Assembly (NCBI RefSeq): GCF_003261055.1
Contig: NZ_CP030073.1
Span: 1,798,001 to 1,862,000 of the forward strand
Reading direction: 5' to 3'
Source: Streptomyces cadmiisoli
GTDB lineage: Bacteria > Actinomycetota > Actinomycetes > Streptomycetales > Streptomycetaceae
Length of the DNA: 64,000 nt
The position numbers and the translations under genes are program-made. Shown piece after piece: positions 22,397-59,240 of the stretch. Within the stretch, counting starts at the first letter, position 1. Each line of letters starts with the position of its first letter. Below the pieces are notes generated by a model. That model worked only from the letters and a program-made list of their open reading frames with translations, did not search any database and was not told where the DNA came from.

Positions 22397-22896
22397 GCGA
22401 CCGGCTCAGGCTCAGACACCGTGGCCACCTGGGGGTTGTCGGCCAGCCACTGGATCAGGAGCGTGCGGGGACGAGCCAGCCCCGCCTCGGCTCCGTCGCC
22501 GATCAGCGGGGAGGGAGCATCGGCTCGCTCGGCGGTGAGCGATGGTGCCAACAGGTCGAGGACGTGCCGGATACGGCTGCTGAACTCGCAGATGGGGTCC
22601 GGGACGGCGTGACGCCGGGCCCAGCGGGCCATCGCGTCGTACAAATCTGCCAACTCCATCCCATCGTCGGTCAGTTGCAGACCGCCGCCGGGCGCGACCC
22701 GGACGAGACCGTAGGCGCGGGCCGTGTCGGAAGCACTCCGCAGTTGGTGCGTGGAGAGGTCGGGCAGGATGCCGGCCAGCCGTCGCGGCGGTATGGCGCC
22801 GTTGTCGTCGATCTCGGTGACCAGGCGGACCAGGGGGCGCGAGGCGAGGAGTTCGACAGCGCGGTGCACTTCGGCAGAGCTGTAGAGGGTGCTCAT
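22393..22896 (-). CDS. Winged-helix DNA-binding regulator
   Basis: A 167-residue protein. Residues 5-85 form a winged helix: AVELLASRPLVRLVTEIDDN, IPPRRLAGILPDLSTHQLRS, then GLVRVAPGGGLQLTDDGMEL, which is the helix-turn-helix followed by the beta wing and the 'LT..G.eL' motif of HxlR/MarR-like regulators. The C-terminal half is helical. The ATG at 22896 overlaps the stop of the next HxlR-type gene (22893) by ATGA and its stop overlaps the MFS start, so all three are coupled. It probably regulates the exporter operon. Confidence 0.7.
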   Translation of the reverse strand: MSTLYSSAEVHRAVELLASRPLVRLVTEIDDNGAIPPRRLAGILPDLSTHQLRSASDTARAYGLVRVAPGGGLQLTDDGMELADLYDAMARWARRHAVPDPICEFSSRIRHVLDLLAPSLTAERADAPSPLIGDGAEAGLARPRTLLIQWLADNPQVATVSEPEPVA

Positions 22897-23735
22897 CGGC
22901 GCGGGCCTCCCGCCGGGATGGCTGTCTTCGGGCGGGCGGTCGTGGCGTGCGAGAAGAGATCGCGGTTGTGCCACGCCGGAGAGGACTGGGGCATCCGAGC
23001 GGGTGGGAGCGCCGCGGGGGCCGGCCGTGACTGGCTGCTGACCCACGGCCTTTGCGCGGGCTTCGCCTGCGGGTTCCCCCAGACCGGGTGTTGGGACGCC
23101 TGGTCGAGGGGCTGCCCGGCGGACCAGGCGGACAGGGTGCCGAGAACGGGGCTCAGGCCGTCGCCTGCTGCGGAGAGCCGGTAGGGCCGGCCGGTGCCCT
23201 TGGTGTCGACGAGACCGTCGGCGACCAGCTGCCGCAGCGGCGGGTAGATGTTGGTCCAGTCGCTGCTGGGCATCACGATCCGGGCCAGGGCCCGCCCGCT
23301 GACCTCCTGGCGGGACTTGAGCACCCACAAGATGGCGGCGGCGTGACGCCGGGTGAGCAGGGTGAGGCTGTCCTCGATCTGCTCGATCGCGGGCAGCGAG
23401 CGGTCCGCCTTCTCCAGGTGTTCCTCGGCCCAGGTGACGATCACCGGCAGGACCGGCAGTAGGGCAACACCACGGTTGGTGTGGCCGTAGGTCACGTGCC
23501 GTGAGGTGTGTTCGGTGCGTACGACGAGTCCGGCGTCGCACAGCGCCTTGAGCTTGGGGTGGAGCTGGCCGCTCTGCAGCCAGGACACCTTGGCCGCCAG
23601 CTCGCTGTAGCGCAGCGGCGGGCCGGAGAGGGCCAGGAGGATCCTCACGTTCCAGCGCGGGGTGATCATGGCCAGGGCCTCAGTGACCCGGGCGATGTCG
23701 GCGTCGGTGTCAGGGGGCAGAGCGGTGATGGCCAA
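22893..23735 (-). CDS. HxlR-type regulator with two winged-helix domains
   Basis: A 280-residue protein, more than twice the usual HxlR length of about 110. Residues 18-105 are a classical HxlR winged helix: ITPRWNVRILLALSGPPLRY, then FSEL-like YSELAAKVSWLQSGQLHPKL and GLVVRTEHTSRHVTYGHTNRG. Residues about 125-200 repeat a second winged helix (LTLLTRRHAAAILWVLKSRQ, GRALARIVMPSSDWTNIYPP, GLVDTKGTGRPYRLSAAGDG). The rest is Pro-rich. No sensory Cys is obvious. Two linked domains suggest binding an extended operator. It is the first gene of the exporter/ligase operon and probably controls it. Confidence 0.75.
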   Translation of the reverse strand: MAITALPPDTDADIARVTEALAMITPRWNVRILLALSGPPLRYSELAAKVSWLQSGQLHPKLKALCDAGLVVRTEHTSRHVTYGHTNRGVALLPVLPVIVTWAEEHLEKADRSLPAIEQIEDSLTLLTRRHAAAILWVLKSRQEVSGRALARIVMPSSDWTNIYPPLRQLVADGLVDTKGTGRPYRLSAAGDGLSPVLGTLSAWSAGQPLDQASQHPVWGNPQAKPAQRPWVSSQSRPAPAALPPARMPQSSPAWHNRDLFSHATTARPKTAIPAGGPRR

Positions 23736-25206: not shown

Positions 25207-25554
25207 TTAGTCCAGGCACATACGGACGTCGCGGTAGACGTACGTGCTGGAGACCCAGCCCTTGACGCCGGTCGTCTTGTCCGTGATGTAGACCCAGTTG
25301 CCGCTCTTCTTGGAGACGGTGAACTTGTGGCTCTTGTAGAGCACCCCGAGCGCCGTGGACTTCGAGCTGGCCTTGGACCGGATGGTCACGGCCTTGGCGT
25401 GCACTGCGTACGGCAGCGGCGGGAGGGACGAGCAGCTGCTCGCAGGGAGAGCGGAGGCGGCGGTCGGTGCCGCGTTGGCGGTGGTGGCGGACAGCACCGG
25501 CAGAGCGAGTGCGCCGAGCATCGCGGCGGATATAGCGATTCGGGTGGAGCGCAT
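25207..25554 (-). CDS. Secreted SH3-like domain protein
   Basis: A 115-residue protein; the ATG at 25554 follows GGAGG at a suitable distance. Residues 1-28 are a signal peptide (RSTRIAISAAMLGALALPVL, cleavage after TTANAAPTA). The mature part is one bacterial SH3 domain: AVTIRSKASSKSTALGVLYK, then FTVSKKSGNWVYITDKTTGV and KGWVSSTYVYRD, the 'vn.Rs.pss.s..ig.l..g..v' and 'W..v.....G..GWv...Yv' pattern. Such domains bind peptidoglycan or wall polymers. It is the only gene under the palindromic promoter-like element at 25619-25687. Confidence 0.75.
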   Translation of the reverse strand: MRSTRIAISAAMLGALALPVLSATTANAAPTAASALPASSCSSLPPLPYAVHAKAVTIRSKASSKSTALGVLYKSHKFTVSKKSGNWVYITDKTTGVKGWVSSTYVYRDVRMCLD

Positions 25555-25618: not shown

Positions 25619-25687
25619 GCTGTATAAGAGTCCGGAGAATCGCCGGTTTGGCTAACCGGCGATCGTCGGCTATGTTGCGCCGCCCGT
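25619..25687 (-). promoter_or_regulatory. Palindromic promoter/operator element, copy 1
   Basis: Read leftward, this carries the arms CGCCGGTT and AACCGGCG (25641-25661 in plus coordinates) around AGCCA. GCAACATAG begins 17-18 bases before the palindrome and CTCCGGACT follows it, then TATACA as a possible -10. Two further copies (45641-45698 and 59181-59240) have the same parts at the same spacing. The palindrome overlaps the expected -35 region, so a bound protein would block or activate transcription. The 25554 gene starts about 90 bases downstream. Confidence 0.7.
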
Positions 25688-25700
25688 GTCGGCTGAGCGC

Positions 25701-26444
25701 TCAGCGCGAACGGCCGGGTGGGCGCGGAGCAGGGGCCTTCGCCACACCGGCCGGACGGCTGGCGGCGGCTGCCGGGCGGATCGGCGGGAGAGGGCCGGCC
25801 TCGCCAGTGAGCCGGTCGTCGCACCACTGCAGGGCCTCGCCCACCGTGTCGAAGCCGCCCTCGCGCAGGGTGTGCGTCCACGTCTCGGTGTCGACCTCTT
25901 CGACCACGACGCGGAACGGCAACGGGGCGCGTTCGTCCAGGGCGCGCAGGGCCACGAGCACGACCATGTCGTCGGGGTCGTCGCTGGTGTAGGAGTAGCC
26001 CATGGCGTAGTGGTTGCCGTCGCCGGCGAGGCGTCGCTCCAGCGCTCGCGTGGCCTCGTCCGCCGGCGGCGGGCCCAGTTCGGGGTCGAGGCCGATGGCG
26101 TCGTGAGGGCAGCCGCGGTGGATGAGCCAGGACTGCGCCATCGCGGGCAGCGGCAGCGGGGCCTGCTCGAAGCTGAACGTCTGCTTCTCGTAGTCCCGTT
26201 GCAGATGCACGGCGAGCACCTGGGGCATGCCGGGGTGTCCCCAGGTCGCGGTGCGGTCGAACAGGACGTAGTAGCTGTGCGGACCGTCGTGATGTTCGGC
26301 GAGGGGGACGAGCATGTCCTCGTGGACGCCGACCTTGCGGTAGAAGTCGAGGTACCTCTCCTCGTCGGCGTCGAGGTCGTCCAGATCGAAGTCGACTTGA
26401 GGGATGGACTTCCGGACCGGCGCCGGTTCGGTGGGAGACAACAA
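25701..26444 (-). CDS. Hypothetical protein of the leftward operon
   Basis: A 247-residue acidic protein with no signal peptide. The middle part contains paired strands (DGPHSYYVLFDRTATWGHPG, VLAVHLQRDYEKQTFSFEQA, MAQSWLIHRGCPHDAIGLDP) and a later module YTSDDPDDMVVLVALRALDE, RVVVEEVDTETWTHTLREGG. The C-terminus is Pro/Ala-rich. No catalytic motif stands out and I do not recognise the family. Its stop precedes the palindromic element at 25687 by 14 bases. Confidence 0.6.
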   Translation of the reverse strand: MLSPTEPAPVRKSIPQVDFDLDDLDADEERYLDFYRKVGVHEDMLVPLAEHHDGPHSYYVLFDRTATWGHPGMPQVLAVHLQRDYEKQTFSFEQAPLPLPAMAQSWLIHRGCPHDAIGLDPELGPPPADEATRALERRLAGDGNHYAMGYSYTSDDPDDMVVLVALRALDERAPLPFRVVVEEVDTETWTHTLREGGFDTVGEALQWCDDRLTGEAGPLPPIRPAAAASRPAGVAKAPAPRPPGRSR

Positions 26445-29722: not shown

Positions 29723-30847
29723 TTGAAGGGGCTCGCCGCCGGCATCGGCGTCGTCTTCCTGTCCCCGATCCTGATCGCCGGCACCGGCATGATGCTGGCC
29801 TCCTCGGCCGACGCCGTGCAGAGCAGCGGCTCCTTCAGCAGCTGCCTGAGCGACATCGACAGCGACAAGGTCGCCGAACAGGTCACCAAGATCCTTGACG
29901 GCGCCTCCGGCAAGGACGTGCACGTCGAGGGCCTGGACCTGCCCGCCGAGCAAGTCCCCAACGCCCAGACGATCGTGGCCGCCGGCCTCTCCCTCGACGT
30001 CCCCAAGAAGGGACAGATCATCGCGCTCGCCACGGCGATGCAGGAGAGCCGACTGCGCAACCTCGCCCACGGCGACCGCGACTCCCTCGGCCTCTTCCAG
30101 CAGCGCCCTTCCCAGGGCTGGGGCAGCGCCGAGCAGATCCGCGACCCCACCTACGCGAGCGAGCAGTTCTACAAGCACTTGCTCAAAGTGAGCGGGTGGC
30201 AGCAGATGACCGTCACCCAGGCCGCCCAAGCCGTGCAGAAGTCCGGCCTGCCAGACGCGTACGCGCAGTGGGAAGAGCTCGCCACCGCGCTGCAGGCCGC
30301 CATCGCCAAGACCTTCCCCGGCGGCGGTGACGCGGACGGCAAGGAATCGGACCAGGACAAGCAGCCGGCCACGACCGGCTGCGCGCCGGGCCAGGACGGT
30401 TCCGGGTTCGGCCGCATCCCCGAGGGGAGCGTCCCGAAGGGTTACTCGATCCCCAAGGACGCCGATCCGAAGGCGCGCAAGGCCATCACCTGGGCGATGC
30501 AGCAGCTCGGAACGCTCTACCAGTGGGGCGGATCCTGCACGAACTCGCATGGTCCTGACCCCATGGGCCGCTGCGACTGCAGCTCGCTGATGCAGCAGGC
30601 GTACGCCCACGCCGGAATCACGCTCACCCGCACGACGTACACGCAGGTCAACGAAGGCAAGGCGATCTCGCCCGCTCATCTCAAGCCCGGTGACCTGATC
30701 TTCAGCCGCGGCACCGCCGCCCGGCCCGAGCACGTCGGCATGTACATGGGCGAGGGCCTCGTGATCGAGGCGCCGCGCACCACTAAGCCGGTCCGGATCA
30801 CCCCGATCAAGGACTGGACGATTCTCGCCACCCGCCGCGTCCTCTGA
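29723..30847 (+). CDS. NlpC/P60 cell-wall hydrolase of the conjugation apparatus
   Basis: The readable part is 374 residues from a TTG at 29723. An upstream ATG at 29664 (TSRYPPMPEPAARRAVRS) stops at 29724 in another frame, and the hydrophobic segment that follows (GLAAGIGVVFLSPILIAG) would fit it well, so a one-base frameshift near 29715 is likely. After one N-terminal membrane segment comes a lysozyme-like segment with ALATAMQESRLRNLAHGDRD (catalytic-type Glu in 'qESr') and SLGLFQQRPSQGWGS. The C-terminal NlpC/P60 domain has GRCDCSSLMQQAYAHAGI with the catalytic Cys, then PEHVGMYMGEGLVIEAP with the catalytic His. It should open the wall for the mating channel, like VirB1-type proteins. Confidence 0.8.
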   Translation: MKGLAAGIGVVFLSPILIAGTGMMLASSADAVQSSGSFSSCLSDIDSDKVAEQVTKILDGASGKDVHVEGLDLPAEQVPNAQTIVAAGLSLDVPKKGQIIALATAMQESRLRNLAHGDRDSLGLFQQRPSQGWGSAEQIRDPTYASEQFYKHLLKVSGWQQMTVTQAAQAVQKSGLPDAYAQWEELATALQAAIAKTFPGGGDADGKESDQDKQPATTGCAPGQDGSGFGRIPEGSVPKGYSIPKDADPKARKAITWAMQQLGTLYQWGGSCTNSHGPDPMGRCDCSSLMQQAYAHAGITLTRTTYTQVNEGKAISPAHLKPGDLIFSRGTAARPEHVGMYMGEGLVIEAPRTTKPVRITPIKDWTILATRRVL

Positions 30848-30985
30848 CGCCGCACCCGCCCGGCTTCGCCCCGGGCGGTCCGGCCTTGCGGCCACTTCCA
30901 CGCCCTTCCCGCACCTCCCCCTCCGCTTTCGCCTTCCCCGCCGGCCCTCGCTGGGCCCGCGTATGCAAGGAGCCCCACCACCCCT

Positions 30986-31300
30986 ATGTCCGTCCCCCTC
31001 GCAGACCGTGTCATCCAGCTCGCTTACGACCCAGGAATTGCGCCCAAGGGCGGTGGCCTGCCCGGCCTGAGCGTGCTGAAGAACGTCGTCAACTCGATCA
31101 ACATGTTCGGCATCATCGCCGTCGTTGGCGCCCTCGCCGTCTCGCTCGGCGTCTGGGCCTGGGGCCACCACACCGGTGGCCACCAGGCCGAGGCCAACGG
31201 GAAGAAGGGCGCCGTGGTCGCCGCTGGCGCCGCCCTCGGTCTGGGCGCCGCGAACGGCATCGTGGCCTTCTTCTCCGGCCTGGGCTCGCAGGTCCACTGA
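30986..31300 (+). CDS. DUF6112-like small membrane protein (VirB2-like)
   Basis: A 104-residue protein with two membrane segments: INMFGIIAVVGALAVSLGVW and VVAAGAALGLGAANGIVAFF, joined by a short positively charged loop GHHTGGHQAEANGKKG. A polar N-terminus (VIQLAYDPGIAPKGGGLPGL) precedes them. This is the layout of DUF6112 proteins and of VirB2-type pilin subunits, which have two hydrophobic helices around a small loop. It lies directly between the wall hydrolase and a VirB8-like gene, the place where a pilin gene is expected. No pilus is shown. Confidence 0.7.
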   Translation: MSVPLADRVIQLAYDPGIAPKGGGLPGLSVLKNVVNSINMFGIIAVVGALAVSLGVWAWGHHTGGHQAEANGKKGAVVAAGAALGLGAANGIVAFFSGLGSQVH

Positions 31301-31992
31301 TGCGGAAACGATCCCCGTCCCTCTCACTGTCCTCGTACGGCTCGGGGTGGTCGGCCAACCGGCGCATCGCGATCGTCGCCGCCGCCGTCGCCGTCCTGCT
31401 CGCCATCGCCGGGGTCGTCGCCCTGTTGACCGGAGGCGGGAATAGCCACCAGGCTCCGGGCACCGCGGCGCCTGCCCCAACTGGCAGCCCGTCCTCCTCC
31501 GAGGCCGCCCCGAAGCCTTCCTCCGGATCCGGGTCGGTGCCCAAGCCGCCGCAGATCTCCGAGCCGGTCGCCTACGCCAAGGCAGCAGCCCAGATGCTGT
31601 GGTCCTACGACACCCATGACACCAGCCGCGACCAACAGCTCGCCGGCATGCGCGCCTGGATGACCGCCGAGACCAAGTACGCCGACTGGGCCTCGGTCTC
31701 AGGCCAGGTGCCCGATCCGGTGCTGTGGTCACGGATGGCCGACCAGGACCAGCACGCCACCGCCCACGTCACCGAGGGCCACTACCCCGGCGCGTTCAAG
31801 CAGGCCCTGGCCGAGGACCCGTCCGCGATCACCGAGGCGTACATCTACGTCGTCACCGTCAACGGCAAGCAGACGCTCAGTTGGAAGAAGGGCGGCGGAG
31901 GGGCCGAGGAACGGGCCGTGACCCTCGCCGTCCAGTGCCGCCCGAACCACGACTGCACCCTGGCCGCCATCGCTCCGAGCGTCACGCAGTGA
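31300..31992 (+). CDS. VirB8/TcpC-like conjugation protein
   Basis: A 230-residue protein whose ATG at 31300 overlaps the TGA of the previous gene. Residues 20-45 form one membrane segment (RRIAIVAAAVAVLLAIAGVV), followed by a Pro/Ser linker and an extracytoplasmic domain: EPVAYAKAAAQMLWSYDTHD, then RAWMTAETKYADWASVS and VTEGHYPGAFKQALAEDPSA. One short cytoplasmic tail, one helix and an NTF2-like outer domain is the VirB8/TcpC/TraC-type plan in Gram-positive type IV systems. It would bridge the channel core. I infer this from layout and neighbours; direct sequence similarity is weak. Confidence 0.65.
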   Translation: MRKRSPSLSLSSYGSGWSANRRIAIVAAAVAVLLAIAGVVALLTGGGNSHQAPGTAAPAPTGSPSSSEAAPKPSSGSGSVPKPPQISEPVAYAKAAAQMLWSYDTHDTSRDQQLAGMRAWMTAETKYADWASVSGQVPDPVLWSRMADQDQHATAHVTEGHYPGAFKQALAEDPSAITEAYIYVVTVNGKQTLSWKKGGGGAEERAVTLAVQCRPNHDCTLAAIAPSVTQ

Positions 31993-32028
31993 CCCGCGCC
32001 TGACACACGAAAGGAGGAGCAACTCCCC

Positions 32029-33399
32029 GTGGGCTTCTGTGATTACCCCCTGGCCGACAAGTTGTGCACGGTCGGCGACGCGGTGGATTTCGCCTCGGAC
32101 CCCGGCAAGGCCATCGGTGACTGGATGGCGAAGTCCGCCGGTGAACTGGCCGCCGCCGCGGCCAACCTGGCCGCCGAGGCGGTCGACACCACCACGAAGG
32201 TGGATCTGAACGCCGGATGGTTCCGTGACAACTACGAGATGCTGCTGCCACTGGGCCTGGTCCTGCTGGTCGCCACGTTCTGCGCACAGCTGGTCCGGGC
32301 CGCCATCCGGCGCGACGGGCAAGCTCTGACACAAGCGTTCACCGGCACCATGAGCGGCGTCCTGTTCGCCTTCTGCGCCATCGCCCTGACCACGGTGGCC
32401 GTCGAAGTCGTCGACGCCGTCAGCGACGGCCTGTTCAAGACCGCGAACCTGGACATCGAGGCGGCCGTGCGCCGCATCGTGAAGGTCAGTCAGATTGCGT
32501 CGCTGGCCGGGCTAGGCTGGCTCGTCCCGGTCGTCGCCGGCCTCGGCGCAGCCATCGGCGCCTTCCTCTACTGGTGCGTGATGATGGTCCGCAAGGTCGG
32601 CATCCTCGTCATGGTCACGCTGGCCGTCTTCGCCTCCGCCGGCGGCGGCTGGGAGGTCGCCCGGCGCTGGCGCAAGGGCTGGATCGAAGCCACCGCCACC
32701 CTCGTGGTCTCCAAACTGCTGATGACCGTGATCTTCGTGATCGGCATCGCCGCCATGGGCAAAACCGAGACCAAGGACGGCATCGCCGCTCTGGCCGACG
32801 TCATGTCCGGCATCGTGATCATGATCTTGGTGCTGCTGTGTCCGTACGCGGTCTTCAAGTTCGTGCACTGGGCGGCCGACGGGACCGACGGGGAGTCCAT
32901 CCACCGTGCCGGCGGCGCCGGTGCGCAGATCGCGAAGGCGCACGCCGAGAAGGCCGCCCGCAAGGCCGCCGCTACTGCGGCCACCGCCGGAACCGGGGGC
33001 GCTGCCGCCGGCGCGGGTGCCGCACCGCAGGGCCCCGACGGCGGTGGGTTCCCCGGCGACGTCGCTGCCAACCCGACCGGCGGAGGCGGCGAGGGCAAGG
33101 AGGGATCGCAGAGCGGCGGAACGGAGGCCTCGCCCGGCGGCGACGCGGTCAAGTCCGGCCTGGAGAAGCCCGTCCAGCCCGCGCCGACGAGCGTGTCCGA
33201 CGACACCAGCGGCCAGGTGGGCGGCAGCCCGGGGCCTGGCGGATCCGGCGCGAGCGCCGCGTCTGGGCAAAGCGGCGGATGGCAGTCCACTCCGCCGACC
33301 ACAACCCCGCCGCCGCAGGGCGCACCCCCGTCCTCCGGCGCGCAGAATGCCCCGTCCAGCGGGGCCAGCGGACCCCCGCCGCCTCCGACCGGCCTCTGA
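32029..33399 (+). CDS. VirB6/TrbL-like polytopic membrane protein
   Basis: A 456-residue protein from a GTG at 32029 with AAAGGAGG upstream. The N-terminal 60 residues are soluble (CDYPLADKLCTVGDAVDFAS). Then come about six membrane segments, for example MLLPLGLVLLVATFCAQLV, VLFAFCAIALTTVAVEVV, WLVPVVAGLGAAIGAFLYWC, MMVRKVGILVMVTLAVFASA and LMTVIFVIGIAAMG. The C-terminal 160 residues are low complexity, rich in Gly, Ala, Pro and Ser. This is the plan of TrbL/VirB6 channel proteins of conjugative elements. It is followed by the SCO6880-like gene, as in other Streptomyces type IV-like clusters. Confidence 0.75.
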   Translation: MGFCDYPLADKLCTVGDAVDFASDPGKAIGDWMAKSAGELAAAAANLAAEAVDTTTKVDLNAGWFRDNYEMLLPLGLVLLVATFCAQLVRAAIRRDGQALTQAFTGTMSGVLFAFCAIALTTVAVEVVDAVSDGLFKTANLDIEAAVRRIVKVSQIASLAGLGWLVPVVAGLGAAIGAFLYWCVMMVRKVGILVMVTLAVFASAGGGWEVARRWRKGWIEATATLVVSKLLMTVIFVIGIAAMGKTETKDGIAALADVMSGIVIMILVLLCPYAVFKFVHWAADGTDGESIHRAGGAGAQIAKAHAEKAARKAAATAATAGTGGAAAGAGAAPQGPDGGGFPGDVAANPTGGGGEGKEGSQSGGTEASPGGDAVKSGLEKPVQPAPTSVSDDTSGQVGGSPGPGGSGASAASGQSGGWQSTPPTTTPPPQGAPPSSGAQNAPSSGASGPPPPPTGL

Positions 33400-33480
33400 T
33401 TCCCAGACCGACCCCCGGGGGCGGGATGTGCACGCGCCCTCCCGCCCTCGGGTTCCACCCGCGCCTCCAGGACCCGCCCC

Positions 33481-34953
33481 TTGACTGATCTCTCCGTCGC
33501 CCCGGTCACGGTGAAGTTCCCGCACCGGAGCCGCCGCGGCATCCTCCTCGGCCTCTCCCTGCCCCAACTTGTACTCGTCTCCTGCATGCTGGCCCTGCTG
33601 CTGATGACGGTGATCTCCACCGGACTGCTCGGCGCCGTCGCCCTGGCACCGCTGTGGGCGGCATCCGGGGCACTCGTAGCGATCCGCCGGCACGGCCGCT
33701 CCCTGATCGACTGGGCGCCGATCGTCACCCGGTATGCGCACCGTCGCCGCACCGGCCAGACCCTCTGGCTCGCTCGGCCCGTCACTCGGCCCCGGCAGGA
33801 CGGCGTCCTCCATCTGCCCGGCACCGCCGCCTCCCTCAAGGTGGTCACCCCCGGCGACTCCGCCAACGGTGCCGCAGCCGTCCACGACCCGCACCAGCAG
33901 ACCCTGACCGCCATCGCCCGCGTCACCAGCCGCGCCTTCGCCCTCCTCGACCCCGCCACCCAGAACCACAACGTGAACAGCTGGGGACGCGCACTCGCGG
34001 GCATCGCCCGCACCGGGCACATCGCCACCGTGCAGGTGCTGGAACGCACCGTCCCCGACTCGGGCGACACCCTCACCCGCCACTGGACCCACAACGGGCA
34101 GTCCCAAACCCCCGTCGCCGGACAGATCTACTCCGAGCTGGTCTCCTCTGCCGGCCCCGCCGCCGCCCCGCACGAGACCTACCTCGCCATCTCTCTCGAC
34201 CTCAAGGCCGCCCGGCGCCTGATCAACCAGGCCGGCGGAGGGCTGCCCGGGGCGTTCACCGTCATGGAGCAGACCACCGCGTCCATCGCGCAGGCCGCCC
34301 GCAACGCAGGTCTCCAGGTCACCGGCTGGCTGAGCGCACGGGAAATCGCCGCCGTCATTCGCACCGCCTACGACCCCAAGGCCCTCGCCGCGCTCCAGCA
34401 ATGGTCCGAGACCGGCCGCGCCGAAGCCGACCCCGCAGCCGCCGGTCCCGTCGTCCAGTTCGAGGAGTACGACCGCCTCGCCACCGACAGCGCACGGCAC
34501 GCGACGTACTGGGTGGAGAACTGGCCGAGGACCGAGATGGGGGCCGGGTTCTTGCACGGGCTGATGTTCACGGCCGGCGTGCGCCGCAGCCTCTCCCTTA
34601 TATACGTGCCGCAGGGGCTCGAGTCGGCACTGCGGGACGTCCAGCGCAAGAAGGCCGCGATCATCGCCGACGCCAACGAACGTGCCCGCCGCGGGCAGGT
34701 CGATTCCGAAGAGGACTCCGTCGAGTACGCCGATGTCAAAACCCGCGAACGCCAGCTCATCGCCGGACACGCGGACGTCGCACTGACCGGCCTGGTCACC
34801 GTCACGGCCGAGACCGACGCCCTCCTGGACGCCGCCTGCGCACAGATCGAGACCCACGCCGTCACCTCCGGCGTCGACCTCCGACGGCTCAACTACCAGC
34901 AGCCCGACGCCTTCGCCCTCACCGCGCTCCCGCTCGCCCGCACCGCCCTGTGA
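33481..34953 (+). CDS. SCO6880-family conjugation protein with PrgI/VirB3-like N-terminus
   Basis: A 490-residue protein from a TTG at 33481. Residues 10-35 (VTVKFPHRSRRGILLGLSLP) and two hydrophobic segments (LVLVSCMLALLLMTVISTGL and LGAVALAPLWAASGALVAIR) form the PrgI/VirB3-like start of SCO6880-family proteins. The rest is a large cytoplasmic domain: WAPIVTRYAHRRRTGQTLWL, DGVLHLPGTAASLKVVTPGD, then FALLDPATQNHNVNSWGRAL, which is the VirB4-N-like part without an ATPase. The true ATPase is encoded separately at 35544. In this family the two together behave as a split VirB3-VirB4. Confidence 0.85.
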   Translation: MTDLSVAPVTVKFPHRSRRGILLGLSLPQLVLVSCMLALLLMTVISTGLLGAVALAPLWAASGALVAIRRHGRSLIDWAPIVTRYAHRRRTGQTLWLARPVTRPRQDGVLHLPGTAASLKVVTPGDSANGAAAVHDPHQQTLTAIARVTSRAFALLDPATQNHNVNSWGRALAGIARTGHIATVQVLERTVPDSGDTLTRHWTHNGQSQTPVAGQIYSELVSSAGPAAAPHETYLAISLDLKAARRLINQAGGGLPGAFTVMEQTTASIAQAARNAGLQVTGWLSAREIAAVIRTAYDPKALAALQQWSETGRAEADPAAAGPVVQFEEYDRLATDSARHATYWVENWPRTEMGAGFLHGLMFTAGVRRSLSLIYVPQGLESALRDVQRKKAAIIADANERARRGQVDSEEDSVEYADVKTRERQLIAGHADVALTGLVTVTAETDALLDAACAQIETHAVTSGVDLRRLNYQQPDAFALTALPLARTAL

Positions 34954-35053
34954 ACCAACGGCGCCCGCGCGCACCCCGACCCACCGCACTCCGGATCACC
35001 CGCGACGGGGCGCCCCTCACCACCCTGCCTACCGGCAGGAAGGACCACCACCT

Positions 35054-35515
35054 TTGACCTCTCCTACGCGCCCCGACGACGCGCACCCCTACCTCCGCGC
35101 CGCGAGCGCCGGCATCCGCCACCACGCACGGACCCTAGCGCCGTCGGACGCGGACCCGCCCAAGCCCGGAGATCGTCTGCACCTTGACGTGCTGCACGCC
35201 CACCTCACCGCTCTGCTCCAGCTTCTGGACCGGCTCGCCGACAACACCCGGCACCCTCACCCGGCCGCCGGACGTCACCTGGCCACTGCCCACACCAGGC
35301 TCTGGCAGGCCACGAGCGAAGTCCACGCCGCCTTCCACCTGCTGCCCGGCATACTCCAGGCCGACGCCGAGACAAGCGCCTGCCATCCAGAACGGCTCCC
35401 CGAGGGCCCGCCCGTGCTGACGATCTGCCAACGCCACCTCACCGCCGGACACATAGTCCGCCGCAAAACCACCCCCACCGACCTCCGCCCGCACAGCACG
35501 GCCTGCGTGCGATGA
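35054..35515 (+). CDS. Small soluble protein of the conjugation operon (DUF6238-like)
   Basis: A 153-residue protein from a TTG at 35054, about 100 bases after the SCO6880-like stop. DDAHPYLRAASAGIRHHART is followed by long helices (LLQLLDRLADNTRHPHPAAG, TRLWQATSEVHAAFHLLPGI). The C-terminal part carries Cys and His (TSACHPERLPEGPPVLTICQ, RHLTAGHIVRRK) that might bind a metal. I associate it with DUF6238 from memory. It is a regular accessory gene between the SCO6880-like and VirB4 genes in Streptomyces elements; its role is unknown. Confidence 0.6.
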   Translation: MTSPTRPDDAHPYLRAASAGIRHHARTLAPSDADPPKPGDRLHLDVLHAHLTALLQLLDRLADNTRHPHPAAGRHLATAHTRLWQATSEVHAAFHLLPGILQADAETSACHPERLPEGPPVLTICQRHLTAGHIVRRKTTPTDLRPHSTACVR

Positions 35516-35543
35516 GCACCACCCGCAGAATCGAGGGCCCCCG

Positions 35544-37058
35544 ATGAGCCACCGGCCGGGCCGTCGCGCCCGCCGCGCGTCCGCCAGCCCGCTGTTCACC
35601 CCCCACGGCACCGACCGCGCCAGCCGCAAGGCCGCCCGCCGCCAGCTCGCCGAGGCCACCGCCAAAGCCCGCGCCGAAGCAGGCGCCCACCAAAACGACA
35701 GCCCGCCCGCCGAGCACCAGATGCCCGCCGCGCTCTACCCAGCGGGCGGACGCCCCGGGCCCGCCTCCGCGCGCGGGAACCAGCTGCGGCTGCCCGCCCA
35801 CCGCATGACCACCGCGGTCGCGGCCGGCGCCTATCCCTTCCTCGCCGAAGGCGGCCTGGGCGCCGAGGGCATCTACATCGGCCGCGACGTCCACGCAGAA
35901 GCGTCGTTCGTCTTCGACCCGTTCGCTCTGTACGGCAAGGTCGAGGGATTCACCAACCCGAACCTGCTGCTCGCCGGCGTGATCGGCCAGGGCAAGAGCG
36001 CCCTCGCGAAGTCCTTCGCGCTACGGTCAGTCGCCTTCGGATACCGCGTCTACGTACCGTGCGACCCGAAGGGCGAGTGGACGCCGGTCGCCGAGGCCCT
36101 CGGCGGCCGGTCCGTCGCCCTCGGTCCCGGACTGCCCGGACGCCTGAACCCCCTGGACGCGGCCCCGCGCCCGGAGAGCGTGGCCGAGGCTGACTGGGTC
36201 GGCGAGATCCGCAAGCGGCGCCTGCTCCTGCTCAGCTCCCTCGCCCGCACCATCCTGGGCCGGGACCTGATGCCCATGGAGCACACCGCCCTGGACGTCG
36301 CCCTCGACGCCGTCGTCACCCGCGCCGCCGACACGCACCGCACCCCGCTCCTCGGCGACGTCGCCGCCGCCCTCAACAACCCCCACGAGCTCGACGAGGC
36401 CGCCGGGATGAAGTCGGGCCAACTCGGCGACGCAGCGCGAGACCTGGCCCACGCCATGCGGCGCCTGGTCCACGGCGACCTGGCCGGCATGTTCGACGCC
36501 CCCTCCACCGTCGCATTCGATCCGAACGCGCCGATGCTCACCATCGACCTGTCCCGCCTGGGCGGCTCCGGGGACGACACCGCCCTCGTCCTGGCGATGA
36601 CCTGCGCGAGCGCCTGGATGGAATCCGCCCTCTCCGATCCCAGCGGCGGCCGGCGCTGGATCGTGTACGACGAGGCATGGCGCCTGATGCGGCACGTCGG
36701 CCTGCTCCAGCGCATGCAGGCCCAGTGGAAGCTCAGCCGCGGCCTCGGCATCGCCAACCTCATGGTCATCCACCGGCTGTCCGACCTGCTCACCGCTGGC
36801 GACGCCGGATCACAAGGCCGGGCCCTGGCCGAGGGACTCCTCGCCGACTGCAGCACCCGGATCATCTACCGCCAGGAGACCGACCAGCTCCACGCCGCGG
36901 CATCCCTGCTCGGTCTGACCTCCGTCGAGATGGACGCCATCGCGCACCTCAACCGAGGGCGTGGCCTGTGGAAAGTCGCAGGTCGGAGCTTCATCGTTCA
37001 GCACCTCCTGCACAGCCATGAACTGGCGCTCTTCGACACCGACGCCCGTATGCACTGA
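35544..37058 (+). CDS. VirB4-type conjugation ATPase
   Basis: A 504-residue protein. The N-terminal 100 residues are basic and Ala-rich. The ATPase core has IGRDVHAEASFVFDPFALYG, then Walker A AGVIGQGKSALAKS (about 144-157), the strand VYVPCDPKGEWTPVAEAL, the hydrophobic RWIVYDEAWRLMRH as Walker B (about 372-385), and a coupling motif FLM-like NLMVIHRLSDLLT with LLADCSTRIIYRQETDQ. This matches VirB4/TraE-type ATPases that drive pilus and channel assembly. It is shorter than fused VirB4 proteins because the N-terminal part is encoded by the SCO6880-like gene. Confidence 0.85.
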   Translation: MSHRPGRRARRASASPLFTPHGTDRASRKAARRQLAEATAKARAEAGAHQNDSPPAEHQMPAALYPAGGRPGPASARGNQLRLPAHRMTTAVAAGAYPFLAEGGLGAEGIYIGRDVHAEASFVFDPFALYGKVEGFTNPNLLLAGVIGQGKSALAKSFALRSVAFGYRVYVPCDPKGEWTPVAEALGGRSVALGPGLPGRLNPLDAAPRPESVAEADWVGEIRKRRLLLLSSLARTILGRDLMPMEHTALDVALDAVVTRAADTHRTPLLGDVAAALNNPHELDEAAGMKSGQLGDAARDLAHAMRRLVHGDLAGMFDAPSTVAFDPNAPMLTIDLSRLGGSGDDTALVLAMTCASAWMESALSDPSGGRRWIVYDEAWRLMRHVGLLQRMQAQWKLSRGLGIANLMVIHRLSDLLTAGDAGSQGRALAEGLLADCSTRIIYRQETDQLHAAASLLGLTSVEMDAIAHLNRGRGLWKVAGRSFIVQHLLHSHELALFDTDARMH

Positions 37059-45136: not shown

Positions 45137-45634
45137 ATGGCCGTGCGTACGCACTGGACCGTGGAGCACGCCTGCTCCCACAGCGTGGATCATGACCTGT
45201 CCAATCGCCCTGCCGACAAGCGGGCAGGCTTTGCCCGTTGGCTCGCGTCGAAGGACTGCACCAACTGCTGGAAGGCGGCGCGCGACGCCGACTCCGAGTC
45301 CAAGGACGAGTGGCTCGCGACCAAGCGTGCCGAGGAGCAGGAGGCAGCCGTCGCGTGGGCCAAGCAGTTCGACATGCCGCAGCTGGAGGGCCCGGAGAAG
45401 GCCCTGGACTGGGGCGAGCGCTCCCGCCACCAACTGATGACGGCCGCGCACACCGCGCTCGTCGTCGAGGGCACTTGGGACGAGGCGGACTGGGCGGAGC
45501 TGGAAGAGAAGGCCCGCTCCATCACCCGTGCCGGATGGTGGATCGACCAGCGCGACGCCGACGGCACTGACCTGCAAGAACTCCTCGACGCGGCCAGTGA
45601 GGCGGACCGCGGGACGGAGAACCCCTTCCGCTGA
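45137..45634 (+). CDS. Cys/His-containing hypothetical protein
   Basis: A 165-residue acidic protein with TGAGGAG ahead of the ATG at 45137. The N-terminus has HWTVEHACSHSVDHDLSNRP, then ARWLASKDCTNCWKAARDAD: C..H..H..CxxC could bind one zinc. Acidic helices follow (EEQEAAVAWAKQFDMPQLEG, WAELEEKARSITRAGWWIDQ). It is a type I have seen in Streptomyces plasmids. The function is unknown. It is directly followed by the palindromic element at 45641. Confidence 0.65.
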   Translation: MAVRTHWTVEHACSHSVDHDLSNRPADKRAGFARWLASKDCTNCWKAARDADSESKDEWLATKRAEEQEAAVAWAKQFDMPQLEGPEKALDWGERSRHQLMTAAHTALVVEGTWDEADWAELEEKARSITRAGWWIDQRDADGTDLQELLDAASEADRGTENPFR

Positions 45635-45640
45635 CGGCGG

Positions 45641-45698
45641 GGCAACATAGCCGGGAAACGCCGGTTAGCCAAACCGGCGTTCCTCCGGACTATTGATG
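45641..45698 (+). promoter_or_regulatory. Palindromic promoter/operator element, copy 2
   Basis: GGCAACATAG (45641-45650) is followed, 18 bases from its start, by the palindrome (arms CGCCGGTT 45659-45666 and AACCGGCG 45672-45679 around AGCCA). Then come CTCCGGACT and a possible -10 TATTGAT (45691-45697). The next gene starts at 45734, about 35 bases further. The same parts with identical spacing occur at 25619-25687 (opposite strand) and 59181-59240. It is also the start of a new transcription unit inside the conjugation operon. Confidence 0.75.
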
Positions 45699-45733: not shown

Positions 45734-46159
45734 ATGTCCCAGCCCCCTCCCACCTCGGCGTTCGCGCCGACGACCGACCCGCTCACCCCCGACCGGGACA
45801 TCACCCACGCCCACTTCCAGGCCGGTGACACCGTCGTCGTCCTGAAGGGGGTGGCCGGCGGAGAACTGTGGGGCGACGCGATGCGCGTCGTGGCCCCTTC
45901 CTGGCACACCCCGACCGACGAGGACGGGTGGCGGCTGCGTGATGCGACCGGCGGCGCCCAGTCCTACGTCACCGCCCACCCCCGCTACCTCGTGCACCTC
46001 TCACGCCGCTGCCCTGACTGCCTGATCTATCTGCGGGCCATGGAGGACACCCTCCTCACACGGTTCGCCGACCGCGACGAACTGATCGACTGCGGCTGGT
46101 ACACCACCACCGCCCTAGGCCAGCTCGTGCACATCGCCGACATCCGGAACGGCCGGTGA
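45734..46159 (+). CDS. Hypothetical protein under the palindromic element
   Basis: A 141-residue protein with ribosome binding site GAAGGAA before the ATG at 45734. AHFQAGDTVVVLKGVAGGEL, then WGDAMRVVAPSWHTPTDEDG and GGAQSYVTAHPRYLVHLSRR suggest a small beta-barrel (SH3- or KOW-like). CPDCLIYLRAMEDTLLTRFA gives a CxxC, and WYTTTALGQLVHIADIRN ends the fold. It is the first gene after the copy 2 element and is coupled (GTGA) to the relaxase-like gene that follows. The function is unknown; nucleic-acid binding is possible. Confidence 0.6.
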   Translation: MSQPPPTSAFAPTTDPLTPDRDITHAHFQAGDTVVVLKGVAGGELWGDAMRVVAPSWHTPTDEDGWRLRDATGGAQSYVTAHPRYLVHLSRRCPDCLIYLRAMEDTLLTRFADRDELIDCGWYTTTALGQLVHIADIRNGR

Positions 46160-47014: not shown

Positions 47015-47710
47015 TTGCCCCGCACCGACCGCTTCCTGGACATCCGCCGCGACCCGCACTCCGACGAACTCCTTGCCCGCGGCGGCGACTCCGAGGCACA
47101 CAGCATCCTCCAGCGCGCGGGCTTCGTCGCCGTCGTCCGAGTCCATGAGACGTACCACCGCGCCCCGACCGGCCTAGCGGAGGACGACGAGTCCCGTCTC
47201 GCCACCGACGCCGTGGCCCGCCTGCGGGCGACCGGATACCACGTCGACTGCGACGCGGACTTCGACACCGACTCGCGTCCGGCCAGCTACCTGCCGCTGG
47301 GGCCCTCCGTTGCCCACGTCGCCGAGCGCCTTCGCGAGGCCGCCACTACGGACGAGGCGGCCGATGCACTGACTGAGCTGACCGCCGCCCACGACGGCGT
47401 CCTCTCCGCGCTCGAGGAAGTCCTCACCGCCACCGCCGACTTCCACGACGGGCTCGGCCAGGCGGCCGACCCCTACATCGCGCGGCGGCTGCGCTACCTC
47501 GCCGACGAGCACCTTCGCGTCATCCGTACCGACCTCTCCGAGACCCGCAACCAGCTCGCCGACCGGCATGCCCCGCACCCCGGCCGCAGCACCTGCACCG
47601 GGGAAGTCCCGTCAACCGAGCAAGAGCGCTCTGCCGTGTGCGCCTGCCCGCCACCGCCGCGCACCCTCCCGGCCCCGCCGCCCCCGATGGCCACCGGGCT
47701 GCGCCGCTGA
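47015..47710 (+). CDS. Accessory protein with GF and helical modules
   Basis: A 231-residue protein from a TTG at 47015 (AGGAG upstream). Residues 10-80 form the short module: ARGGDSEAHSILQRAGFVAV, TYHRAPTGLAEDDESRLATD, VARLRATGYHVDCDADFDTD. Residues 95-165 form the helical module: VAERLREAATTDEAADALTE, LTAAHDGVLSALEEVLTATA. The tail is Pro/Cys-rich and disordered. It is a clear paralogue of 48489 (same order of modules). No catalytic motif. Confidence 0.65.
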   Translation: MPRTDRFLDIRRDPHSDELLARGGDSEAHSILQRAGFVAVVRVHETYHRAPTGLAEDDESRLATDAVARLRATGYHVDCDADFDTDSRPASYLPLGPSVAHVAERLREAATTDEAADALTELTAAHDGVLSALEEVLTATADFHDGLGQAADPYIARRLRYLADEHLRVIRTDLSETRNQLADRHAPHPGRSTCTGEVPSTEQERSAVCACPPPPRTLPAPPPPMATGLRR

Positions 47711-53555: not shown

Positions 53556-55346
53556 TTGCCCCCTTCCTCCTCCAGCAGCAACACCGACGGATACGACCTC
53601 TTCCTGCGCCTCCTCCTTGGGGTGCTCGCCGTCGTCGTCCCCCTGTCCCACCTGGCCTGGCTGTCCGGCAACATCACCGCCTACCTCACCGGCACCAGCT
53701 GGGCCCCCTACCAGCCGACCAACGCCCTGCTCCGCCCCGAGCAGGTCTGGTCCGACGCAGGAGAAACGTCCCTGCTGATCGGTGCCCGCATCGTCCCCGT
53801 TCTCCTGCTCCTCGCTCTCGGGGCAGGGGCTGGCGTCCTGTGGGCCCGGCACAACAACCGAAGCGGCAGCCGGAAGAAGATCACCGACATGGCCAAGGCC
53901 CGGGACATCGAGCCGCTGATGGCCAAGGCGATCACCGACAAAGCCCGCTCCCTGCGCCCCAGCCTGAAGGACAGCAAGCACATCGACGCGAAGGACACCG
54001 GCATCCTTCTCGGCAACCTGCAGGGCAGCCGCCACGAGGTACGGATGGGGTTCGAGGACGTCGCCGTCGCGATCATGGCGCCCCGGTCCGGCAAGACCAC
54101 CTCGCTCGCCATCCCGTCCATGCTCGGCGCACCCGGCCCGGTCCTGCTGACGTCGAACAAGGCTGCCGGCGACGCCTTCACCACCGCCTACGAGGCAAGG
54201 GCCCGGGTGGGGGCGGTGTGGACCATGGATCCACAGCAGATCGCGCATGCCGCCCGCGAGATGTGGTGGAACCCTCTCGCCAGCGCGACCACCTTGGACG
54301 GGGCGAACCGTCTGGCCGGACACTTCCTCGCGGCCTCGGTGGACGCCTCCCAGCAGGGCGACTTCTGGTCGAAGGCCGGCAGCAACATCTTGTCCCAGCT
54401 GCTCTTGGCCGCGGCACTCGACGAGCGGCCCATCACCGACATCATGCAGTGGCTCGCCTTCCCCGCCGACCGCACTCCGCTGGACATCCTGCGCGACCAC
54501 GACTTCGCCGCCGTCGCCGCTCAGCTCAAGGGCACCATCGAAGGCCCCCCGGAAACGAGGGACGGTATCTACGAGACAGCCCGGCAATACGCCTCCGCGC
54601 TCCTGAACGCGGAAATCGCTGGGTGGGTGACGCCGCAGAAGGACGTCCCGGAATTCCGGCCGGAGCAGTTCGTCACGTCCACCGACACGCTGTTCCTACT
54701 CAGCAAGGACGGTGGCGGCGGAGCCTCGGCGCTGATCGCCGCGTGCGCGGACTCGGTGATGCGGGCCGCGACCGCGCAGGCCGAACGTGCCGGCGGACGC
54801 CTGGATCCGCCCATGCTGGCGATCCTCGACGAGGCCGCCAACGTGTGCAAGATCAGCGACTTGCCAGACCTGTACTCCCACCTCGGCAGCCGCGGGATCA
54901 TCCCGATCACGATCCTGCAGTCCTACCGCCAGGGCCAGAAGGTCTGGGGAGACGCGGGCATGGACGCCATGTGGTCCGCCTCGACTGTCAAGGTGATCGG
55001 CAGCGGTATTGACGACCCGGACTTCGCGGACAAGCTCAGCCGCCTGATCGGTGACCACGACGTGGAGACCACGTCCACCTCGCACTCAGAGTCCGGAAAG
55101 AGCACGTCGGTGTCGATGCGGCAGGAGCGGATCTTGCCCGCCGACGCGATCCGAGCCCTGCCCAAGGGAACCGCGCTCTGCTTCGCCACCGGCATGCGCG
55201 CCGCCATGCTCGACCTTCGGCCGTGGTACCGGGAGCCCGGCGCGGAGGAGCTGTCCGCGGCGTCCGCCCGCGCCTCGCAGGCGATCACCGCCCGCGCCGT
55301 GGCGAAGCACGCGCCGACACAGTCCGACTTGGGGCTGGCCACGTGA
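53556..55346 (+). CDS. VirD4/TraG-like conjugation coupling ATPase
   Basis: A 596-residue protein from a TTG at 53556. Two membrane segments near the N-terminus (RLLLGVLAVVVPLSHLAWLS and RIVPVLLLLALGAGAGVLWA) surround an outer loop. The motor domain has Walker A IMAPRSGKTTSLAIPS (about 172-187), the strand GAVWTMDPQQIAHAAREMWW, and Walker B PMLAILDEAANVCKISDLPD (about 418-437), with TILQSYRQGQKVWGD as the sensor region. This is the TraG/TraD-type coupling protein that hands the relaxase-DNA complex to the channel. It is the last core transfer gene and is coupled to the cytosine methylase. Confidence 0.85.
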   Translation: MPPSSSSSNTDGYDLFLRLLLGVLAVVVPLSHLAWLSGNITAYLTGTSWAPYQPTNALLRPEQVWSDAGETSLLIGARIVPVLLLLALGAGAGVLWARHNNRSGSRKKITDMAKARDIEPLMAKAITDKARSLRPSLKDSKHIDAKDTGILLGNLQGSRHEVRMGFEDVAVAIMAPRSGKTTSLAIPSMLGAPGPVLLTSNKAAGDAFTTAYEARARVGAVWTMDPQQIAHAAREMWWNPLASATTLDGANRLAGHFLAASVDASQQGDFWSKAGSNILSQLLLAAALDERPITDIMQWLAFPADRTPLDILRDHDFAAVAAQLKGTIEGPPETRDGIYETARQYASALLNAEIAGWVTPQKDVPEFRPEQFVTSTDTLFLLSKDGGGGASALIAACADSVMRAATAQAERAGGRLDPPMLAILDEAANVCKISDLPDLYSHLGSRGIIPITILQSYRQGQKVWGDAGMDAMWSASTVKVIGSGIDDPDFADKLSRLIGDHDVETTSTSHSESGKSTSVSMRQERILPADAIRALPKGTALCFATGMRAAMLDLRPWYREPGAEELSAASARASQAITARAVAKHAPTQSDLGLAT

Positions 55347-57798: not shown

Positions 57799-59159
57799 AT
57801 GACTCCCGCCATCGACGCCCACGTCCGCCTCGACACCCACCCCACTCACCCGAGCGCCGTGCAGGCCGTCCTAACCGGCAGCCAGGCCCACGTCGCTCTC
57901 ATGGCTCTGGAGGCTGCCGACTGGAGCGCCGCCGCCGACAACATCCTGGTCCTGGCCCGCATCGATCACGAGGAGCCCTACTGGGCCGCTGACGCCGCCA
58001 AGCACCTGATCGCCGAAGGCATCACCGTCGAGATCACCCCTCGGCTCCAGGAGGCCATCGACGAGGAATGGACCTGGGCGAACTACCCGATGCCCTGGTG
58101 CACCCGGAGCGAAATCCGCGAGGTCTCCAACCAGGCGCAGAAGATCCACGACGACATCCGCCACGGCCAGCTCCTCATCCACGCCCACGCCCACGACGGC
58201 CACACCACCGTCGCGGTCGGCACATACCTCCACCCAGGCGGCAAGTGCGTTTACCTGCACGGCGAGGACCACCTGCGCCAGGTCGCCGACACCTTCGACT
58301 CACCCGCCCAGGCCCTCCTCGCCTTCGAGAAGGCCCACGCAGCCGAGATGCGCCCCGGCCCAGCACCCCTGACCGACACCGAACGCGCCGCCATCGAAGC
58401 CCGTTCCGTCTTCGACGTCACCACAACCAAGCCCGAACCCTCACGTCCGGAGCCGGAGACCGTCCCCGTCTACCTGGCCGATGCCGGCGACCACGACGCC
58501 CTCCTCGACACCTTCCTCGACACACACGGCGAGTTCGGGAAGTGGCGGACCTGGTCGGATGACACGACGCACGCCATCCACGAGTCGCAGACCCTGCGTA
58601 TCGAGCGCGTCCACGAAACCCCCGCCCACGAGACCGCATGGACCGTAGCCGCCTACGAGACACCCGTCTCCGACCGCATGTGGGTCCTCACCGCGACCGG
58701 CGCCACCCCCGCCCCGGTGCTGCAGGATCTGCTGATCCACCTCGCCAACGGCGACGGCTGGGACACGGTCATCGGCGCCCCGGTGGACGAGAAGATGGTC
58801 ACCTCGGCCACCCAGCCGCTCTCCGACGCCGGATGGAAGCACACCGTGGACAGGCGATGGATCCGCTGGACGGCCCCCGACGGGGACGCGGGCGTCCAGT
58901 TCGACGCCTTCGCCGCACAACACGCGAGTCGGCCACCTGGACCATCTGGGCCGGCCCTGGTCCGGACCGGCCCACCTGGGCCATCAGCGCGTCCCCGTAC
59001 ACCCCGAGTTCACTGCTGGCGGGTCTCTCTGGGTCCCTCGCCCATGAGACCGGCACGCGCCAGGCCCAGCTGGGCCCCGAGCACAGGACCCGCCTCGCCG
59101 CCAGTGCGCCGGCGGCTCCGGCGGTCACGGCCGGCCGATCCGCCAGCCGTTCACGCTGA
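57799..59159 (+). pseudogene. DUF317 gene with a C-terminal frameshift
   Basis: The intact frame runs from 57799 through AVLTGSQAHVALMALEAADW, KIHDDIRHGQLLIHAHAHDG, CVYLHGEDHLRQVADTFDSP to a second half with LLDTFLDTHGEFGKWRTWSD, TPAHETAWTVAAYETPVSDR and the final unit WIRWTAPDGDAGVQFDAFAA near 58915. There the sense passes to another frame: ATWTIWAGPGPDRPTWAISA, then SPYTPSSLLAGLSGSLAHET, the typical DUF317 closing, ending at 59157-59159. The unshifted frame runs on as Pro/Arg noise to 59235. About 450 residues when joined. It is the last gene before the third palindromic element. Confidence 0.65.
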
Positions 59160-59180
59160 TCATCGGCCCACACGAGGCGG

Positions 59181-59240
59181 GGCAACATTGCGCGGGATCG
59201 CCGGTTGGCCAAACCGGCGATCCCGCGCACCATAGATAGT
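59181..59240 (+). promoter_or_regulatory. Palindromic promoter/operator element, copy 3 (orphan)
   Basis: GGCAACAT (59181-59188), then 18 bases from its start the palindrome (CGCCGGTT 59199-59206, GGCCA centre, AACCGGCG 59212-59219), followed by GATCCCGCGCAC and a possible -10 CATAGATAG (59231-59239). The spacing is identical to copies 1 and 2. Reading rightward it meets no gene: the next one, at 59339, is on the other strand. This copy therefore appears to have lost its gene, perhaps at a junction. Confidence 0.7.

Follow-up and report, generated by a model that had tools for sequence, protein, structure and literature searches.

The window analysed here, 64,000 nt of contig NZ_CP030073.1 of Streptomyces cadmiisoli (GCF_003261055.1; positions 1,798,001-1,862,000), carries genes of a T4SS-type integrative conjugative element (ICE), among them that of a TraG/VirD4-type coupling protein, and three copies of a palindromic box (Table 1). 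A conserved plus-strand block of genes is likely, from its predicted products, to specify the transfer apparatus, and methyltransferases and several DUF317 proteins are encoded as well. A relaxase gene (S. cadmiisoli 1796576) and a MobC gene, as read from sequence alone, would lie between the left edge of the window and 5 kb beyond it. A gene for a WhiB-like protein with a C-terminal HTH (WhiB+HTH) occupies S. cadmiisoli 1793216-1793857, 4-5 kb to the left. Searches of the window found no Rfam family match and no tRNA.

Table 1. Boxes and neighbouring genes in window coordinates; the last three rows are leader repeats in coordinates of their own loci
Feature	Position	Strand	Remarks
Box C	25619..25687	minus	palindrome 25641-25661; class C context
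Box A	45641..45698	plus	palindrome 45659-45679; class A context
Box B	59181..59240	plus	palindrome 59199-59219; points into 3' end of convergent gene
Candidate regulator, 280 aa, two tandem winged-helix domains, the first HxlR	22893..23735	minus	within minus-strand gene run after box C
SH3_3-domain protein, signal-like N-terminus, first gene after box C	25207..25554	minus	start about 86 bp from palindrome
Conserved gene without Pfam match	25701..26441	minus	ends about 40 bp upstream of box C
Conserved block: NlpC/P60, EccE-like (just under cut-off) and weakly AAA_10-like proteins	29723..37058	plus	
Conserved 165-aa gene	45137..45634	plus	ends 24 bp upstream of box A
First gene after box A, 141 aa, without Pfam match	45734..46159	plus	start 54 bp from palindrome
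TraG/VirD4-type coupling protein of the ICE	53556..55346	plus	co-directional with box A and downstream of it
DUF317 (SPDY) gene before box B	57799..59235	plus	frame runs through box B
DUF5655 protein, sub-threshold NucS_C match	59339..60235	minus	convergent to box B
Class D leader repeat, L027	3540-3604	minus	
Class D leader repeat, L053	529-590		
Class D leader repeat, L077	5432-5495		

The three copies had been picked out in a preliminary description of this DNA, and all are present, each matching the palindrome CGCCGGTT-N5-AACCGGCG exactly. The palindromic core is longer than had been described, and the centre is RGCCA in every copy; a pattern with a four-base centre found no match, as the actual centre has five bases. 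A block of the form [GC]GCAACAT, read on the box's own strand, starts exactly 18 bases 5' of the palindrome in all three copies, and this spacing agrees with the earlier account. Past the palindrome, a second block (ACTATTG, ACCATAG or ACTCTTA) follows at a fixed distance. It had been taken for a -10-like box; its conservation and position hold up, but the -10 identity is unsupported, as no sigma-70-type promoter was found around box A, the one copy scanned. Boxes A and C precede genes, as also described, and box B precedes none.

Repetition by chance was rejected as an explanation. The pattern CGCCGGTTN5AACCGGCG occurs three times in the window against 6.9e-5 expected under a first-order model, and four times in the 10.2 Mb genome against 0.011 expected under the same model. 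The four genomic palindromes of S. cadmiisoli contig 1 (1729707, 1823641, 1843659 and 1857199) are clustered within a span of at most 128 kb. Nine perfect palindromes with 8-base arms and a 5-base centre occur in the window; they are of seven kinds, and the box palindrome is the only kind that recurs.

Box A lies 7.9 kb upstream of traG, and the genes between are on the plus strand, but a low-scoring minus-strand call (47174-47578) and gaps intervene. No box stands directly before 29723, where the conserved block starts. At box B, homologues of the DUF317 gene in several other loci end 38-39 bp before the box, and the read-through seen in the window is possibly the result of a frameshift.

A composite box across Streptomyces

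With its flanks, the box is a composite of about 54 bp, GSAACATAGCC-N6-CGCCGGTTRGCCAAACCGGCG-N9-ACCATTG. A scan with the 21-mer, one genome per species, matched at least 120 stretches, and 119 of the matches listed come from Streptomyces or Kitasatospora; a Catellatospora match (L108) has no flanking blocks and looks like chance. The alignment comprises 125 distinct sites among the matches listed, those of S. cadmiisoli included, and 123 rows were counted once L108 and one site at a contig end had been dropped. Across these 123 rows the composite has a fixed length from G-16 to G37 (54 bp), and positions A-14, A-13, T-10, A-9, G-8, A31, T35, T36 and G37 are 84-99% conserved; the sites were found through the exact palindrome, whose invariance in this set is therefore by construction, while the conservation of the flanks is not. 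The outer CAA and TTG triplets are mirror-placed, 26 bases from the box centre. Of 150 Streptomyces genomes, 85 gave a match to a sequence-only profile of the box at E<=0.01, and 59 of these still did at E<=1e-10. When genomes were drawn from the whole order, the profile hit 25 of the 45 that belong to the same genus and none of the 15 from other families; the profile was built on the common variant V1 and strict filters were applied in large searches, so that other variants are under-counted.

Copies lying mainly inside genes or far from starts, and a spacing lost in relatives, were the findings that the preliminary description had named as speaking against a regulon. By the author's gene caller, 124 of the 125 distinct sites among the matches listed are intergenic, the single exception being box B of the window, through which the upstream frame reads on, and the spacing is kept genus-wide. 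Boxes recur in four main genetic contexts (classes A to D) and a further one (class G). In class A, a 165-aa gene ends about 24 bp before the box and a 141-aa gene starts about 54 bp after it; in class C, a 246-aa gene ends about 40 bp before, and an SH3 protein gene starts mostly 84-92 bp after. The distances to flanking stops and starts are near-constant in both. Class B boxes have no gene of their own; they are convergent to a DUF5655 gene and, in part of the loci, lie downstream of a DUF317 gene. Class D boxes lie upstream of integrase-family genes, often with an HTH_17 gene in between (Pfam, one locus), as expected for an excision switch. Class G boxes (L023, L156, L194, L220 and L229) lie between genes of 411-564 aa and 126-129 aa, the second of which was not called in L194; the class G box of genome G012 has the same variant as that genome's ICE.

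Among 60 sites from chosen matches, 12 fall in class A, 7 in B, 11 in C (one called by its upstream gene alone), 20 before integrases and 3 in G, and 7 have no class (one of them incomplete); four of the 20 integrase rows reach only 24-27% identity (class E). A set of 36 shorter loci, partly the same places, gave 5 A, 2 B, 2 C, 20 integrase, 3 G and 4 without class. In four boxes (L209, L215, L221 and L233) the centre is AACCA or ACCCA and the right half differs; these boxes stand before distant integrase-like proteins (24-27% identity) and perhaps form a sister regulon. Streptomyces scabiei 87.22 (L027, L120) has one D-class and one C-class box more than 1 Mb apart. A class B box with a DUF5655-type gene is found on a 48.7-kb IMG/VR contig filed as viral (L138), which for that reason may be ICE DNA. 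Boxes B and A, together with genes of ICE type, are found on two plasmid records of Streptomyces sp. SNU607 (L139, L140); both records are small and circular and may be fragments of one larger element.

Many class D leaders contain, past the box, an inverted repeat of the type GTTCGCA-CGGCT ... AGCCG-GCGGAC with a conserved loop, CTTGGCGGTGG (examples in Table 1). Nine bases of this loop are complementary to CCACCGCCA of the B leaders and of many A leaders, the A leader of the window not being among them. The stem-loop folds strongly in two of four D sequences (z -3.9 and -2.8) and weakly or not at all in the other two (z -1.7 and 0.0). The repeat may work at the RNA level or serve as a second operator.

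Most of the ICE core is common to the S. cadmiisoli ICE and six others (G107, G057, G092, G047, G013 and G038). In these six the boxes follow the order D-C-A-B in matching orientation, mirrored in G013 and G038, and the D box lies about 50-170 kb from box C in the compared ICEs. The D boxes of G107, G092, G047 and G013 have integrase matches; those of G057 and G038 were called by sequence and position, without an integrase match. An extra box stands shortly before a DUF4913 gene in ICEs with the CCCC variant (G013 7097456, G012 4634327, G038 6575295 and G057 5218375), placed at the gene in G012 and G013, by position in G038 and by sequence type in G057. The DUF4913 gene of the window has no box at that gene.

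The palindrome varies with the element. The form CGCCGGTTRGCCAAACCGGCG, with R allowed in the centre, is found in 4/4 boxes of S. cadmiisoli, 5/5 of G092, 4/4 of the first G057 ICE and 3/4 of G107; G047 has the centre AGGCA in 3/4. Box B is the deviating box in G107 and G047, and it departs from its ICE's variant in several ICEs. All five boxes of G038 (V4) read CCCCGGTCAGCCAAACCGGGG, and in G013 (V3) three of five are exactly CCCCGGTTACCGAAACCGGGG and all five share the inner 17 bases. Two genomes hold two variants: G057 has, besides its V1 set, a second ICE at 5.2 Mb with two V3-type boxes, C being exact and F differing at one outer position; a single box of the common variant V1 accompanies the V3 set of G013. 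The reader of the box is probably encoded by the element, because the boxes of one ICE mostly share a variant, ICEs differ from one another and two variants coexist within a genome. Variants that track the element are predicted by an element-encoded reader and not by a host regulator. Intergenic placement, recurring positions, the integrase class and these element-linked variants together support the original proposal that one regulator controls dispersed operons.

Candidate readers and competing explanations

Four regulator candidates are conserved in the seven ICEs: a 280-aa HxlR-like protein, its 167-aa neighbour, a 232-aa protein and WhiB+HTH. A domain scan of part of the ICE proteins brought up HxlR-, WhiB- and HTH_36-like proteins as DNA-binding candidates. 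The 167-aa and 232-aa proteins are both without a Pfam match, and our assigning them DNA binding is a guess. The HTH_36 protein (S. cadmiisoli 1791443) was rejected as the reader after it was not found in the G038 stretch. The best candidate, which we put forward tentatively, is the 280-aa tandem winged-helix protein. Its HxlR domain scores 57.3 bits against a Pfam cut-off of 20.8, and the AlphaFold2 model contains two successive, confident winged-helix domains and a low-confidence tail. It shares the HxlR winged-helix domain with the HxlR/YodB family, and YodB is the best Foldseek match of the model (E 1.4e-3). It differs from a single-domain HxlR protein of about 110 aa: it has 280 aa, and its predicted model places a second winged-helix domain at about 116-205. 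Its first domain has 16 listed solved relatives, YdzF, YodB, YtcD and HxlR among them, with chain lengths of 107-168 aa.

Across the 150 Streptomyces genomes, box matches, counted anywhere in the genome and not within the ICE alone, occur in 23 of the 24 with the HxlR-like protein versus 62 of the 126 without it (Fisher 6e-6), and at the stricter limit of a best E<=1e-10 in 19/24 versus 40/126 (Fisher 2e-5); these counts rest on fixed limits (box E 0.01 or 1e-10, HxlR 1e-20, WhiB 1e-25, TraG 73% identity, set with the list in view). The HxlR-like protein follows the ICE type, as judged by a TraG at least 73% identical (22 genomes have both, 3 TraG only and 2 HxlR only). The association with the box therefore speaks for the ICE as the unit and for HxlR rather than WhiB, and is also compatible with another gene of the same ICE family as the reader. 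One HxlR-positive genome, G083, lacks any box match, and a search of the C-type region gave no box in three genomes: G083, G014 (divergent) and G124 (with a truncated class C gene).

The same regulon might instead be read by WhiB+HTH, acting through the principal sigma factor, which we regard as unlikely. The protein is present with full coverage in the seven compared ICEs, its WhiB domain is above cut-off and its HTH matches are weak; the model is poor overall (mean pLDDT 61) apart from a confident trihelical C-terminal HTH, and WhiB1/WhiB3 structures head its fold search (E 0.02-0.08). Its recognition helix changes from SHKHARDLLRQ in V1 to DLDWARDLMRN in V3, but the recognition helices of both HxlR and WhiB differ at the deep split between V1/V2 and V3-V5, and the choice between the two by recognition-helix co-variation failed, as both change with the variant group. 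Genome content speaks against WhiB+HTH: the box is present in 8 of 15 genomes that are WhiB-positive and HxlR-negative versus 54 of 111 with neither (p 0.47), and at the stricter limit in 5/15 versus 35/111 (p 0.55). No box was found near its operon in the stitched S. cadmiisoli region. A chromosomal regulator of the host that reads the boxes of every mobile element would account for the boxes in the 62 genomes without the HxlR-like protein, but it is quite improbable in view of the two variants that track their elements within G057 and within G013, and of the empty result in the other families of the order, obtained with the V1-based model and strict filters.

The palindrome could instead act as an RNA hairpin, in the manner of a terminator, an attenuator or an antitermination signal, and boxes A and C do lie between co-directional genes; the extended arms also co-vary modestly (56 double-change cells versus 35.8 in shuffles, score 0.127 versus 0.080), but pairs changed on both sides number 7 against 6.2 in shuffles. 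The hairpin is not followed by a T run in the three window copies or in the genus-wide aligned sites, as an intrinsic terminator would be, and the terminator scan, which covered box A alone, found no such site around it. The pair that closes the loop is broken by variant V4 in all five G038 boxes, the G031 box sits between divergent genes, and no Rfam family matches; these points make an RNA role improbable. A tyrosine recombinase site of att- or dif-like type, with arms of 11 and a centre of 5, would suit both the frequent integrase neighbours and a centre that is mostly constant within an ICE and variable between ICEs. It is nevertheless very improbable, given that box order and orientation agree in the six other ICEs (the fourth S. 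cadmiisoli box being reversed), that distances in classes A and C hardly vary, and that one box is common to integrases down to 24-40% identity.

Islands, helper elements and a proposed mechanism

Twelve genomes contain an island with the box before an integrase-like gene (G003, G006, G031, G077, G080, G085, G087, G105, G108, G109, G112 and G125). Whole-genome searches of these twelve, some of which are fragmented assemblies, detected neither an HxlR-like protein (E<=1e-20) nor a WhiB relative (1e-25) nor a TraG at 73% identity or above; G105 and G108 have distant TraG relatives (52% and 54%). The claim of ICE-free islands rests on these searches and not on the content of the stretches. Around boxes, 19 stretches of 10-80 kb were compared with 14 ICE proteins: 15 contain none of them, one (G109b) has relaxase and MobC homologues alone, and box-B neighbours appear in two stretches from G019 and one from G149. 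Absence from a stretch of 10-20 kb proves little by itself, because D boxes sit about 50-170 kb from box C in the compared ICEs. In one set of these islands the main boxes are of the common variant, except in G105 (centre AGGCA), and a second G080 box deviates. The G080 island encodes DrmA, DrmB, DrmD and DrmMI (DISARM), and the G031 island LmuB-like and HamA/LmuA-like proteins. The same box precedes integrase genes both of ICEs and of islands in genomes without the ICE. This is the pattern of helpers and satellites and suggests common control of the transfer element and hitch-hiking islands by one regulator that the element encodes.

Helper-satellite control by a shared regulator box has also been described for Bacteroides. 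For Gammaproteobacteria it is described in PMC5704250. In the SetCD regulon of SXT/R391 ICEs, as these sources present it (PMC4344509, PMC5704250), the master regulator is encoded by the element and the excision genes of mobilizable islands answer to it, and we propose the like here. SetCD are activators, whereas the Streptomyces ICE has another box and another candidate protein, and its activation is inferred. In the account of AcaCD of IncA/C plasmids (PMC5704250), the SGI1 and MGI islands are quiescent until the helper's activator turns on the RDF gene; that helper is a plasmid, while here a Streptomyces ICE would take its place, and both the box and the candidate regulator differ. The arrangement thus appears to resemble SetCD/AcaCD control with other parts.

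Within Streptomyces, T4SS-type ICEs have been reported previously (PMC9513070), and two regulatory systems invite comparison. SpdA2 of Streptomyces plasmids binds sps, a conserved palindrome on conjugative elements that encode it (PMC4170104); binding is proposed here. As described there, sps has 12 bp, lies in or beside spdA and affects stability, whereas our box is a 54-bp composite with a 21-bp palindrome, intergenic beside several different gene families. Pra/KorSA of pSAM2 and AICEs provide element-encoded positive control of an int-xis operon (PMC3218068), but pSAM2 is an AICE with TraB-type transfer, and its description in that source, as far as it goes, has no island-shared box. The window has a TraG/T4SS-DNA_transf coupling protein in place of the FtsK/TraB double-stranded DNA transfer of pSAM2-type AICEs. 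The palindrome core string was not found in the open-access literature searched, a result that does not prove its absence from print.

From its sequence and setting, the box is predicted, and we think probably, to be the DNA-binding site of an ICE-encoded regulator. A dimer of this regulator would bind the palindrome and perhaps also the mirror-placed outer CAA/TTG triplets; a dimer of the two-domain protein would offer four recognition helices, fitting the inner arms and the outer triplets. It would switch both excision, through class D, and the operons that follow boxes A and C, and, were the HxlR-like protein the reader, the class C operon would include the regulator's own gene. Small integrative islands whose integrase genes follow the same box would be mobilised by the activity of a matching ICE, and so behave as satellites. 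We lean towards an activator over a repressor, because a repressor supplied by the ICE would leave the islands of ICE-free genomes derepressed at all times, and this parallels the islands under SetCD and AcaCD, which stay quiescent until a helper enters (PMC5704250). A fuller picture is speculative: a T4SS-type ICE of Streptomyces would encode a single-chain, double-winged-helix activator reading the 54-bp box; islands, some with defence genes, would carry the box before their excision genes and ride this helper; and box-regulator pairs would be split into specificity groups, each satellite answering its own kind of helper only.

If these proposals are correct, helper-satellite control by a shared regulator box would exist in Actinomycetota too, with different parts. 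The box offers a sequence-level clue to when the large T4SS-type ICEs of Streptomyces could excise, and predicts the chromosomal islands that these ICEs would mobilise, among them islands that carry DISARM- or LmuB-type genes. Because natural variant groups exist, the regulator can be put to the test, as each version should bind its own variant best.

The fourth S. cadmiisoli box (1729707) adjoins panD, 94 kb to the left of box C, and is followed by an HTH_17 gene, a kinase and a DrmD-like helicase, with no integrase; the integrase at 1872345 has no box nearby. Since this box is reversed relative to the D boxes of the six other ICEs, it may belong to a separate island. Beside panD, a gene identified by sequence reading, S. 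cadmiisoli 1729873-1749195 (L009, L010) comprises the HTH_17 gene, the Ser/Thr kinase, the DrmD-like helicase and genes for very large proteins, and is a candidate defence module; a kinase resembling this one is encoded in the G105 island.
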